Shown one piece after another: positions 24,492 through 28,918 of a stretch of 30,744 nucleotides of DNA; positions within the stretch are counted from its first letter, which is position 1, and each line of letters begins with the position of its first letter. The DNA lies in the IMG/VR virus record IMGVR_UViG_3300047369_000089, positions 1-30,744 of that record; one strand, given 5' to 3'. The notes below the pieces were generated by a model, which did not search any database, had not been told where the DNA came from, and saw only the letters and a list, made by a program, of their open reading frames with translations. Source of the DNA: a virus. The position numbers and the translations under genes were made by a program.

Positions 24492-25697
24492 TTAGTAAAT
24501 GAAGTACTTGCCTCTATTTGGTTTCTCAAGCTGGTATGTCACAGCGTACCTGATAGCATCTAAAGCATGGTTATGATCATCTATCGGTGTGTTAGATTTA
24601 CGCTCTAGCCAACAGTAATTATTTAGCTCTTTGATTAGCTCTTGAGAATCTGGGCTTATTACTAGGTCGTAATCTTGTAGGATAGTTATTCCATGAGTTA
24701 CTGAGCCTTGACCTTTCACAGCTGGAATTATGTTTAGTCCTTTCTGCTTTAGTTCTTTTATCAATCGAGGCTCTGCGCTGTCTGCTATAATTAAGCTCGT
24801 ACCAGCTACTTTTTCATTCACTTGATGTATTTGGCTTGTGGTTAAGTTTGGCTTGTATAGATGAAGCATAAGGTATATCTTCTTGTTTGCTTTGTCTACG
24901 TTCGTTTCTACTAGCGTTGTGGGGTCTACTGAGAAGCCGAAATCTTGACCATAAACAGAAGTACCTACTCGCTTAAACTCTCCGACTTCCCAGTTAGAGA
25001 ATATCACACCTTCAGCTTTCGATAACCAGCCTCCTAGTATTTGGTGCTTGTACTTCTCTGGTCTTCTCTGTTTAATATTCTCTACTTGCTTTAGAAAGCT
25101 CTCAGATAGATTCTCTAAGTTGTCTAGGTAAGTAGTGTGTATGTATGTAGTATCGTCTTTACTTATGTTGCTTCCCTCTTGAACTCCTCTAGTCTCAAAG
25201 AACTTCTGATAGATAAAATGTTCTTTTGTGGTTGGGTTCATTATCATGATCACTCTGTTAGCTATTCCTTTTTGACGTACTGACATATCAATAGTGTCAA
25301 ATACGTTCTCGTCTACAAGCTCTTCAGCCTCATCTAGTACCCACGTTGTTACTCCTTGCAAAGACTTTAGAGAAGCTACCTGATTCCCTGAGCTGGTTTT
25401 GATACCTCTGAATAGAATCTTAGAGCCAGTCCTTGTATTTATTACCTCATCTCTTGTAATATAAAACTCAGATTCTAAACCTAATAAACCAATCTTTTCC
25501 ATAAACTCTGGTATGATGGAAATACTAGCAGACCTCAAAGTATAACGAGTAAAAAGTATAGTATGCCCAGCTTCATAAGTTAAAAGCAAAAGAAGCGTAT
25601 TAACAGCGAACGACTTACCAGAACCACGACCACCAGTTATAACGCAATACCTAGTATTATTCTCAATAGAAAGGTACTTGCTATTTATCTCCATCAC
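24492..25697 (-). CDS. terL: Terminase large subunit
   Basis: The 401-residue protein is a Terminase_3-type motor and nuclease that packages DNA into the prohead. The ATPase domain shows Walker A GGRGSGKS (22-29), Walker B VLDEAEEL (120-127), and a coupling motif MIMNPTT (151-157). The nuclease domain follows with QDFGFSVDPT (251-260, Asp252), IIADSAEP (303-310, Asp306) and DDHNHALDAIRYAV (373-386, Asp380). All are intact. Its start overlaps the small subunit gene by 17 bases. After the gene there is a gap of about 70 bases leading to the promoter at 24390-24420. Confidence 0.95.
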   Translation of the reverse strand: MMEINSKYLSIENNTRYCVITGGRGSGKSFAVNTLLLLLTYEAGHTILFTRYTLRSASISIIPEFMEKIGLLGLESEFYITRDEVINTRTGSKILFRGIKTSSGNQVASLKSLQGVTTWVLDEAEELVDENVFDTIDMSVRQKGIANRVIMIMNPTTKEHFIYQKFFETRGVQEGSNISKDDTTYIHTTYLDNLENLSESFLKQVENIKQRRPEKYKHQILGGWLSKAEGVIFSNWEVGEFKRVGTSVYGQDFGFSVDPTTLVETNVDKANKKIYLMLHLYKPNLTTSQIHQVNEKVAGTSLIIADSAEPRLIKELKQKGLNIIPAVKGQGSVTHGITILQDYDLVISPDSQELIKELNNYCWLERKSNTPIDDHNHALDAIRYAVTYQLEKPNRGKYFIY

Positions 25698-26046
25698 TTT
25701 TTATAGACTTAATAATATCAGAAAAAGATAGGTTTGTCTTTAGGTTTGTTGTCTGTGTAATGTCTTGCTTTTCAATGTAGCCTCTTTTGCTTCCTTTTGT
25801 TTTTAGGTAGAATATAGTTGCGCTTGTGTTTCCGCTTCCAATCTGTTTATGTAACTGGCTTTCTGCAAAATCTAAAGCTATGTTTTGTATGTCTTCAACT
25901 TCTTTTGCAAATTCTTCATCTGTTTTTAACCAATTGTAATATTGAGTTCTACCTATTCCTACACTTTTACAAGCTGTTGTAACTACTCCTAAAGACTTTT
26001 CTAGGGCTTCTATTACTGCTTTTTTATGTTGTTCAGTTTTGTTCAT
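25681..26046 (-). CDS. terS: Terminase small subunit
   Basis: The 121-residue protein begins with a helix-turn-helix-like region (about 8-45, ACKSVGIGRTQYYNWLKTDE), the type of DNA-binding domain of phage small terminases. A helical oligomerisation region (about 48-78, ALDFAESQLHKQIGSGNTSA) and a family-typical IFYLKTKGSKRGYIEK stretch follow. It recognises the phage genome and loads it onto the large subunit. It overlaps the large subunit start by 17 bases, and the gene upstream ends ten bases before it. Confidence 0.85.
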   Translation of the reverse strand: MNKTEQHKKAVIEALEKSLGVVTTACKSVGIGRTQYYNWLKTDEEFAKEVEDIQNIALDFAESQLHKQIGSGNTSATIFYLKTKGSKRGYIEKQDITQTTNLKTNLSFSDIIKSIKSDGDK

Positions 26047-26055
26047 CAGTTTAAT

Positions 26056-27132
26056 TTATTTCATTTCGAAAGACGCTGTTATTCTTTGTTTGCTATTATT
26101 ATTAGGGTCATTGTTTCCATGAATAATTCCAGTTTTTGCATTTAATCTGCCAAATCTATTACATTTCCAAATATTTGATTTTTTTAAAGCATTAATTAAA
26201 CTTGGAGCTGAGGTAACTATTGTGTACCTAAATTTTTGATTTTTGTAAAGTTTTCCTATTTCATTTAAAAATTTAATGCCAAATCCAGCACCTTGATAAT
26301 CTGGCAAAATTACCAATCTATGGACTTTTTTAATGTTTTTAGCTTTTGGATGAGGCAAATGTAAAACACTTAAAAATCCTGCTATCTCATTGTTAATAGT
26401 TGCCAAATAAACATGAGCTGCATTATTATGACTATGACTTAGATAATGGTGTTTAGCAAACATCTTCCAAATTGATTTATTTTTAGATTCGTAGATGTTG
26501 AATTTAATTTTTGGTCTATTTTTTTTTTGCTCTTCAAAAGATTGAAAAGTCATAGTATCTGTATTAAAAACCCAATCTGGTAATAACCAATCTTCTACGT
26601 CATGATGACAAGTAACAGCTATAAATTGTTTTTTTGTTTTTCTTATTGCTTTCTGCATTGCAAAAGAACCTATTTTAGCTACATTTCTATCCACTACGCT
26701 TGTAAATTCATCAAAAACAAATAATTCATTTTTTTCTAAAATTGCTCTTGCTAAATCTACTCTCATTTTTTGACCATTAGATAAAACAGAATAAGGTTTT
26801 AACCAACTTGGTGGACTTGAAAAACCTACCGAATTGAAAGCATTAGTTATATCTTTTAAACTACAATTTTTTGGCATATCATCTAAAATAGTTTCAGCTT
26901 TATAGTTGAATTTATCTATATATGAGTTTTTAAATAATTGTTTTGCTATTGTTGTCTTACCAGTTCCACTTTTTCCGACTATCAATCCTATTTGCCAATT
27001 TTCTTGTATATCTATATCTCCTTTAAAATGTTCTATAACATGTTCAGATTTTAAGTCAAATTGCCCTATTATAGATGCTACTCTAAATGTTTTTTTGGGT
27101 TTTACTTCTTTTATAATGTCAAAATTCGGCAT
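26056..27132 (-). CDS. ABC-type ATPase fused to a GNAT acyltransferase domain (COG2401-like)
   Basis: The 358-residue protein joins an ABC ATPase half to a GNAT half. The ATPase has Walker A GKSGTGKTT (53-61), signature LSNGQKMRVDLARA (117-130), Walker B LFVFDEF (137-143) and H-loop CHHD (175-178), with no membrane domain. The GNAT part (about 220-327) has KHHYLSHSHNNAAHVYL, HRLVILPDYQGAGFG (271-285; the acyl-CoA-binding Q-x-x-G-x-G/A-like loop), and TSAPSLINALKKSNIWK. The HHYL and RLV landmarks resemble the Mom-like GNAT subgroup, which modifies DNA bases. It overlaps the ParB-like gene by 22 bases. It is much richer in A/T (about 28% GC by hand count against about 40% in terL), a sign of recent gain. 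A DNA modification or counter-defence role is inferred. Confidence 0.8.
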   Translation of the reverse strand: MPNFDIIKEVKPKKTFRVASIIGQFDLKSEHVIEHFKGDIDIQENWQIGLIVGKSGTGKTTIAKQLFKNSYIDKFNYKAETILDDMPKNCSLKDITNAFNSVGFSSPPSWLKPYSVLSNGQKMRVDLARAILEKNELFVFDEFTSVVDRNVAKIGSFAMQKAIRKTKKQFIAVTCHHDVEDWLLPDWVFNTDTMTFQSFEEQKKNRPKIKFNIYESKNKSIWKMFAKHHYLSHSHNNAAHVYLATINNEIAGFLSVLHLPHPKAKNIKKVHRLVILPDYQGAGFGIKFLNEIGKLYKNQKFRYTIVTSAPSLINALKKSNIWKCNRFGRLNAKTGIIHGNNDPNNNSKQRITASFEMK

Positions 27133-27635
27133 TCGTATCCTTTTTCTAATAATTTATTATAAGTATTTTCTTGTTCTTCTTCATCTTTACAATAAACTTC
27201 TATTCTATATAAGTTATTTATTGTATCAGATAAATCTTTATCTTCTTCGGCTTCCAGTTCAACTTCTTCAAATGGAAAACCATCTAAACCCCAATCTTCA
27301 AGTTTTTCAGCATCCCATTCATTTGCTAAAATATCCCAATCCCACTCACCAAAACCTACATTATCTTTAACTATAAACTGCTTCTGCTGTTCTTCTGTTA
27401 AATCTTCCGCTTTAATTATATGTACGTTTTTCAATCCAGCTTCTTTACAAGCCTTTAATCTCATGTTTCCTCCTAAGACTACCATGTCATTATTGACAAC
27501 GATAGGTCTTAACTTTAGCATCTCTGGGAACTCTTCAATAGACTTTACTAGTTTCCTAAACTTATCGTCTTTTATGATTCTAGGATTGTCTTTGTTAGCT
27601 TTTACGCTGTTTATTTTAACTTCTTTTATATCCAT
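27111..27635 (-). CDS. ParB/sulfiredoxin-like nuclease-domain protein
   Basis: The 174-residue protein has ParB-family motifs: KANKDNPRII (12-21), RPIVVNNDMVVLGGNMRLKA (43-62), where the GGNMR replaces the usual GxxR, then AGLKNVHII and a KDNVGFGEWDWD motif (90-101) common in phage ParB-like proteins. The end (NTYNKLLEKGYECRILTL) is also typical. Such domains bind or cut DNA, or use nucleotides in modification systems; their phage role is not fixed. It is coupled to the ABC-GNAT gene by overlap and headed by a bipartite motif. The last about 130 bases share the low-GC composition of that gene. Confidence 0.8.
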   Translation of the reverse strand: MDIKEVKINSVKANKDNPRIIKDDKFRKLVKSIEEFPEMLKLRPIVVNNDMVVLGGNMRLKACKEAGLKNVHIIKAEDLTEEQQKQFIVKDNVGFGEWDWDILANEWDAEKLEDWGLDGFPFEEVELEAEEDKDLSDTINNLYRIEVYCKDEEEQENTYNKLLEKGYECRILTL

Positions 27636-28372: not shown

Positions 28373-28918
28373 TTATAGTTTATCGTAGTCTTCGTTATTA
28401 AAGTCTTCGTAGTCTTCTCCTAGACGCTCTCTAAGTTGGTTCTTACAGAAGTTTACTGTATGGAATATGTTCGTAACGCTGATTCTTGTTACTGTGCTTA
28501 ATGCTCTCATAGACATTCCAGACTCAATGTACAAAGTAAATAGTTCTTTGTTGTATGGATATCCTTCCTTATCTAAGTTGTTCAGCTCTTCGTATAGTTT
28601 TTGAGTGATCTTCGTGTAGCCTCCCTCTCTTTGTTCTTTGTAGTCTTCTGATTCGATAACTTTGAACTCTGTAATATCGTAGAAGAAAAACTTACCTTTG
28701 TCTTTTAGGTAAGACTTGTACATATTGTTTAGCACTCTCCAGATATAGGACTTGCTTACTTCTCCTTTTTCGTTTATTACTTTCTCTCCAGCGTTGTAAT
28801 AGTGTAGTCTTAAATACATCTCTTGTACTATGTCCTCAGCGTGAGAAGTGCAGCCCATAGCTTGTAAGAATCTTAGATACTCTTCGTGATACTTTGATAC
28901 TTTTTCTAGCCAGTCCAT
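28373..28918 (-). CDS. Sigma-70-like RNA polymerase factor
   Basis: The 181-residue protein has a region 2-like segment (about 25-42, HAEDIVQEMYLRLHYY), a linker, and a region 4-like helix-turn-helix near residues 134-165 (MSMRALSTVTRISVTNIFHT, then VNFCKNQLRERL). This is the layout of small, ECF-type sigma factors, which replace the host factor at selected promoters. It sits at the end of the early genes just before the packaging and structural genes, a fitting place for a late-gene activator. The bipartite motif found at five later genes is a candidate target. The fold is moderately secure; the target is inferred. Confidence 0.7.
   Translation of the reverse strand: MDWLEKVSKYHEEYLRFLQAMGCTSHAEDIVQEMYLRLHYYNAGEKVINEKGEVSKSYIWRVLNNMYKSYLKDKGKFFFYDITEFKVIESEDYKEQREGGYTKITQKLYEELNNLDKEGYPYNKELFTLYIESGMSMRALSTVTRISVTNIFHTVNFCKNQLRERLGEDYEDFNNEDYDKL

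Follow-up and report, generated by a model that had tools for sequence, protein, structure and literature searches.

We found that the virus record analyzed here encodes a two-gene module, an ABC ATPase-GNAT fusion (ABC-GNAT) and a ParB-type partner, that is probably a phage DNA base-modification system, in which ABC-GNAT would perform an ATP-dependent acyl modification targeted by the ParB module. The window is the whole stretch of DNA analyzed, 30,744 nucleotides of IMG/VR record IMGVR_UViG_3300047369_000089. Since the slot behind ParB is filled by known DNA-modifying enzymes in related phages, ABC-GNAT most likely puts a protective group on phage DNA. The leading reading, based on genomic evidence, is that it works like Mom. 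Observations that bear on this are the anatomy of the module, the conservation of its motifs and of its partner, the co-evolution of the two genes, and the interchange of the module with others of Mom or methyltransferase type.

All window features described below lie on the minus strand. The ABC-GNAT gene (26056..27132) encodes 358 aa, and the ParB/Srx-type partner gene (27111..27635) encodes 174 aa (ParB_N, E 4.7e-7). The two genes share 22 bases (27111..27132), with the ABC-GNAT start codon and an AAGG ribosome site lying within the ParB coding sequence. The small terminase subunit gene terS (25681..26046; phrog_4044, E 1.3e-7) begins 9 bases downstream of ABC-GNAT and is followed by terL (24492..25697; Terminase_3, E 1.6e-30). 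A first-pass annotation, made from the sequence alone, had correctly described both the overlap and the position before terminase. Its estimate of about 28% GC for the fusion gene, against about 40% for terL, was close to the measured values (ABC-GNAT 27.6%, ParB 30.9%, terS 32.0%, and terL 38.1%). The fall in GC does not begin within the last 130 bases of the ParB-like gene, as had been proposed; GC is already reduced over the entire ParB gene. Third-codon-position GC is also low (15.6% in ABC-GNAT and 23.4% in ParB, with most other genes at 24-42%), so the dip touches synonymous sites. A scan of the window for tRNA and Rfam features found none. Upstream of the module, positions 28373-28918 encode a small protein resembling sigma-70 region 2 (E 1.8e-4), a match that falls short of the curated cut-off.

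The ABC ATPase domain spans aa 1-203 (26524..27132; ABC_tran, E 2.6e-10), with structural matches at Z ~15 over residues 1-209. Every checked ABC motif residue was invariant in 59 diverse relatives, and the Walker A lysine was followed by S or T. These residues are G53, S55, G56, G58, and K59 of Walker A (GKSGTGKT, aa 53-60; 26953..26976), L117, S118, and G120 of the ABC signature (LSNGQ, aa 117-121; 26770..26784), D141 and E142 of Walker B (FVFDE, aa 138-142; 26707..26721), and the H-loop histidine H176 (26605..26607). The GNAT domain occupies aa 204-358 (26059..26523; Acetyltransf_1, E 1.6e-6), and Acetyltransf_1 or Acetyltransf_7 was detected in 16/16 relatives. H229, Y230, R272, W322, and R350 were invariant in this part across the 59 relatives, the first two lying in the HHYL motif (aa 228-231; 26440..26451). 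Q280 and G281 of the acyl-CoA pyrophosphate loop QGAGFG (aa 280-285; 26278..26295) were present in 58/59, with one gap. AlphaFold2 gave a confident two-domain model of the full-length protein (mean pLDDT 90.8). The fusion proposed in the first-pass annotation was thus borne out, as was the intact ATPase lacking a membrane domain: no permease is fused to or adjoins ABC-GNAT in the window, which sets it apart from ABC transporters. PADLOC reported general ABC similarity only for the enzyme.

A model of the GNAT domain alone (pLDDT 89.3) matched GNAT folds at Z 12.7-14.8 over 126-141 residues; matches to the whole model were filled by ABC domains. The top matches of the GNAT-only model were IAA acetyltransferase, Naa50, and RimI (Z 13.7-14.8), that is, generic and protein N-acetyltransferases. 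A canonical GNAT with such nearest folds counts against base modification. It would suit a protein or tRNA acetyltransferase that serves host takeover or counter-defense, with the ABC domain as an ATP-dependent switch and ParB as a guide to DNA-bound targets (RNA polymerase, restriction enzymes); there is precedent in phage GNATs such as Rac, which acetylates RNA polymerase (cited in PMC7824862). We consider this alternative unlikely. Fold neighbors of GNATs are a weak guide to substrate and do not decide it for ABC-GNAT, and it is DNA methyltransferases and Mom, rather than protein modifiers, that use the same ParB module and slot. That ABC-GNAT and Mom replace each other next to one kind of ParB domain, as described below, gives grounds to expect DNA as the substrate.

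In a profile search, ABC-GNAT was a full-length match to phrog_11143 (aa 13-325, E 1e-97) and belongs to this phage family of ABC-GNATs, which has no function assigned. Annotated phage records with relatives (coverage of at least 80%) numbered at least 35, and relatives also occurred in hundreds of viral contigs and in prophages of many bacterial phyla. Complete ABC ATPase motifs with a C-terminal GNAT domain are what is expected of the COG2401-like, ABC-coupled GNATs; our literature search for COG2401 found no paper naming it. The linkage with ParB described in the first-pass annotation recurs among relatives: 142/144 IMG/VR relatives, on viral contigs like the window, had an upstream ParB gene with exactly the same 22-base overlap, which also occurred in 30/80 bacterial loci. 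Together with its conserved AAGG ribosome site, the overlap was exact in 179 loci, and this recurrence, with the invariance of the motif residues, argues that the arrangement is not due to chance. Across 114 loci, pairwise ABC-GNAT distances tracked those of ParB (Spearman 0.87; partial 0.81) far better than those of TerL (0.58); therefore, lateral movement of the pair as one unit is supported.

The module had been regarded as a recently acquired cassette. As a claim on time, this fails because the pair, its overlap, and its low GC recur across relatives. The pair and the overlap are old and widespread, and ABC-GNAT had lower GC than its flanks in 117/124 related viral loci. GC of the gene tracks that of its flanks across all loci (r 0.97), and among related viral loci the dip persists as a feature of the gene.

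Some relatives had other gene structures. The ABC and GNAT halves were two ORFs, several of them overlapping, in (pro)phages of Streptococcus, Lactococcus, Gilliamella, Spirosoma, and Alicyclobacillus (L091:4001-5070, L092:4001-5055, L107:4001-5070, L187:6001-7070, L183:6001-7142, and L200:6001-7112); these are either recurring split genes or frameshifts. In Enterococcus phage 9184 (L268:7565-9006; also L105:3983-5424), the ABC and GNAT ORFs lie inside a DNA polymerase gene, and the polymerase C-terminal sequence resumes in the ORF after the ABC ORF, as if a module had been inserted.

The N-terminal part of the partner is that of ParB-methyltransferases (phrog_498, E 1.5e-29; PADLOC MTase_II, E 2.1e-11). 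It differs from the ParB of ParABS systems: only ParB_N was found, with no HTH or dimerization domain, and no ParA was annotated beside the partner gene in the phage loci examined. Separate from the ParB domain, the C terminus carries an adaptor micro-domain of ~32 residues (aa 143-174; 27114..27209) with the consensus FGVIVECEDEEEQEKLYNRLKEEGYKCRVLTL. In three groups of loci, the stretch immediately before ABC-GNAT encodes it in 143/144, 60/80, and 66/80 cases; Mom loci lack it (0/80), though a ParB gene is present in most of them. Of the seven columns that reach at least 95% conservation among ParB partners, five fall within it. In Mu-like phages, it forms a stand-alone mini-gene (phrog_28816) without a ParB domain; we considered this mini-gene as a ParB and rejected the assignment, since it comprises the adaptor micro-domain only. 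The micro-domain is the ABC-GNAT-specific part of the ParB partner, and it may serve as a docking element for the enzyme. The large P12024S-type group has neither ParB nor adaptor micro-domain (0/80 loci), which counts against the base-modification reading.

Related phages have either ABC-GNAT or another effector in one slot. Between L172 and L312, similarity covers the upstream DNA (74%) and the ParB domain (70% aa) and resumes downstream (69%) 14 bases after the ABC-GNAT stop codon in the former and 10 bases after the Mom stop codon in the latter. The two differ in adaptor and effector, with the micro-domain and ABC-GNAT in L172 versus a CxxC tail and Mom in L312. Similarly, Arthrobacter phages EastWest (ABC-GNAT) and Martha (Mom) have flanks of 65% and 80% aa identity and ParB proteins of 59% identity. 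ABC-GNAT and Mom replace each other in P. gingivalis phages 011a and 014a between flanking tail genes 88-96% identical, and this slot is at the genome end, like mom in Mu. For methyltransferases, Streptococcus GBSInt8.1 and Javan492 have 82% identical ParB domains, followed by ABC and GNAT in the first and fused to a methyltransferase in the second. Two other candidates were set aside: Pseudomonas Komp_PAO1_1 and PAN70 had one short match and otherwise no common flanks, and Enterococcus 9184 and PMBT2 are not a clean exchange, with ABC-GNAT lying inside the DNA polymerase gene.

A survey with the 132-aa ParB domain of L312, in which the effector played no part, was analyzed for the best 80 loci. 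Directly behind ParB in 77 of them was a DNA methyltransferase (67), Mom (8), or ABC-GNAT (2). The methyltransferase loci comprised 62 fusions identified by motif, three that were cut or broken, and two N6_N4_Mtase fusions assigned by Pfam, one of which was scanned and the other assigned by the same sequence type. Each ParB of the eight Mom loci bore a CxxC tail, and each of the two ABC-GNAT loci bore the micro-domain. Conversely, Appa-type true Mom genes had a ParB gene directly upstream in 72/80 loci. Another C-terminal domain was present in the remaining three survey loci. In L626 (2501-3265 and 3225-5058), as in L627 and L631, this ParB domain is joined to a C-terminal domain of another kind, with no assigned function. 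The genes that follow in L626 resemble, by eye, a fusion of phosphoglycerate mutase with nucleotidyltransferase and a glycosyltransferase-like protein; the locus is possibly another modification variant.

These data bear on whether ABC-GNAT, Mom, and methyltransferases are simply unrelated accessory genes inserting at a variable cargo slot behind ParB. The slot is exchange-prone, and in loose windows shared-flank pairs were almost as many from random anchors: the count of 172 pairs, 135 of them controllable, was not clearly above that background, and therefore we rely only on the tight exchange cases. With tight flank limits, 19 Mom/ABC-GNAT pairs sharing both flanks were found versus 0 in 100 random-anchor sets. 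The ParB C terminus switches together with the effector, and the ParB partners are base-modifying enzymes or ABC-GNAT in nearly all survey loci, all of which makes the cargo explanation improbable. Exclusion between Mom and ABC-GNAT is not strict because a few Mom loci also contain an ABC-GNAT match, or the reverse; this too counts against base modification.

Recurring neighbors of ABC-GNAT are ParB, terminase, portal, and formyltransferase genes. ABC-GNAT could instead be a DNA-handling ATPase that serves replication, concatemer processing, or packaging, with GNAT as a regulatory domain. This would fit its joining to a DNA-binding ParB-type protein and its position just before terS/terL in the window, many viral contigs, and prophages, but is improbable given that the gene lies after tail fiber genes in Mu-like phages and near replication genes in others, and that Mom takes its place in the same slot.

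Accessory genes lie behind ABC-GNAT in several phages. In the Mu-like group, a formyltransferase-fold gene is directly downstream in 56/61 loci with room for one. Gordonia phage Axumite also has such a gene after ABC-GNAT, annotated as a tRNA methyltransferase. Formyltransferase-fold genes (phrog_9240) directly behind ABC-GNAT are L104:4990-5607, L096:5089-5562, and L098:1805-2452. Directly behind ABC-GNAT in phage Jace is an aspartate 1-decarboxylase gene (L094:5074-5499). This enzyme makes beta-alanine, and the gene is possibly a donor-supply gene. Streptococcus phage MismyG has an ASCH-domain gene after ABC-GNAT (L107:5117-5485), ASCH being a predicted reader of modified bases. An ORF adjoining the module in another locus (L210:7012-7506, minus strand) is ASCH-like by eye, with no Pfam match. 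We speculate that the accessory genes point to elaboration of an amine- or amide-bearing group.

Base modification by ABC-GNAT would proceed as follows. The ParB-type protein would bind or target DNA, and its C-terminal micro-domain would dock ABC-GNAT, made by translation presumably coupled to that of the ParB gene. The ABC domain would dimerize and, by hydrolyzing ATP, load onto DNA, track along it, or open it, while the GNAT domain would move an acyl-type group from a CoA donor onto a DNA base; acylated progeny DNA may then resist host nucleases. More tentatively, phages could have a plug-in platform for DNA modification with ParB as its shared base. Effector-specific C-terminal adaptors would link this targeting domain to one of three enzymes: a methyltransferase, Mom, or ABC-GNAT, the last of which would depend on ATP and install a new acylated base. 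In Mu-like phages, the formyltransferase would probably process the ABC-GNAT product further. A new base modification would give phages a new means of evading restriction, perhaps CRISPR as well, and would supply a new enzyme tool. EastWest and Martha are a natural matched pair for a direct search for the modification, and the adaptor micro-domain, being small, lends itself to tests of its putative docking role.

The family and the DNA-acylation hypothesis are not new, since such a role was predicted earlier: PMC7824862, citing Iyer et al. 2013, describes a GNAT coupled to an ABC ATPase, with predicted acylation of a DNA base, and names phage pT24 as an example. The COG2401-like protein described there has two domains identical in kind to those of ABC-GNAT. 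The pT24 homolog (H33; 37.5% identity) is split into two ORFs. The ParB partner, the adaptor micro-domain, exchange with Mom, and the formyltransferase go unmentioned in the text consulted. We did not find the ParB/adaptor architecture or the exchange with Mom and methyltransferases described in the literature searched, and Iyer et al. 2013 may overlap with them. The same literature yielded no report of a modified base in any phage carrying ABC-GNAT and no experimental proof that ABC-coupled GNATs make a DNA modification. The Leptospira LE3/LE4 paper contains no restriction data, and the MetaGPA paper does not mention GNAT, ParB, or ABC.

The first-pass annotation had put forward a DNA modification or counter-defense role, now supported by the ParB module and slot common to DNA methyltransferases and Mom, and had ascribed Mom-like landmarks to the GNAT domain. 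The strings KHHYL, HRLV, and DYQGAGFG are present, but the last is no landmark of Mom, being the usual loop by which GNATs bind acyl-CoA. The Mom profile PF25680 in Pfam was matched by 0/16 GNAT domains at E 0.01, and hhalign of ABC-GNAT with Mom was weak (probability 26%); identification as Mom by sequence was therefore rejected. The Mom structure 8bv8 was absent among the matches listed for the GNAT-only model, which included hundreds of GNATs. Mom of phage Mu (PF25680, PDB 8bv8) is, like ABC-GNAT, a member of the GNAT superfamily, occupies the same slot with the same ParB domain upstream, and has an invariant His-Tyr pair near the domain N terminus. Unlike ABC-GNAT, it has neither the QxxGxG loop nor an ATPase, and the sequence-profile relation between the two does not go beyond GNAT.

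ParB-like proteins act in DNA modification elsewhere, as in ParB-methylase (PMC5512222). DpdB, a ParB-like ATPase of the Dpd 7-deazaguanine system, acts with a DNA base-modifying enzyme (PMC12839542); the likeness is one of description, and the enzyme, unlike ABC-GNAT, is a transglycosylase. The ParB-DNA methyltransferase fusions of phrog_498 have a ParB domain of the same kind; over 140 aa, those of GBSInt8.1 and Javan492 are 82% identical. Unlike the ABC-GNAT system, they carry their effector, a SAM methyltransferase, on the same chain and have no micro-domain.
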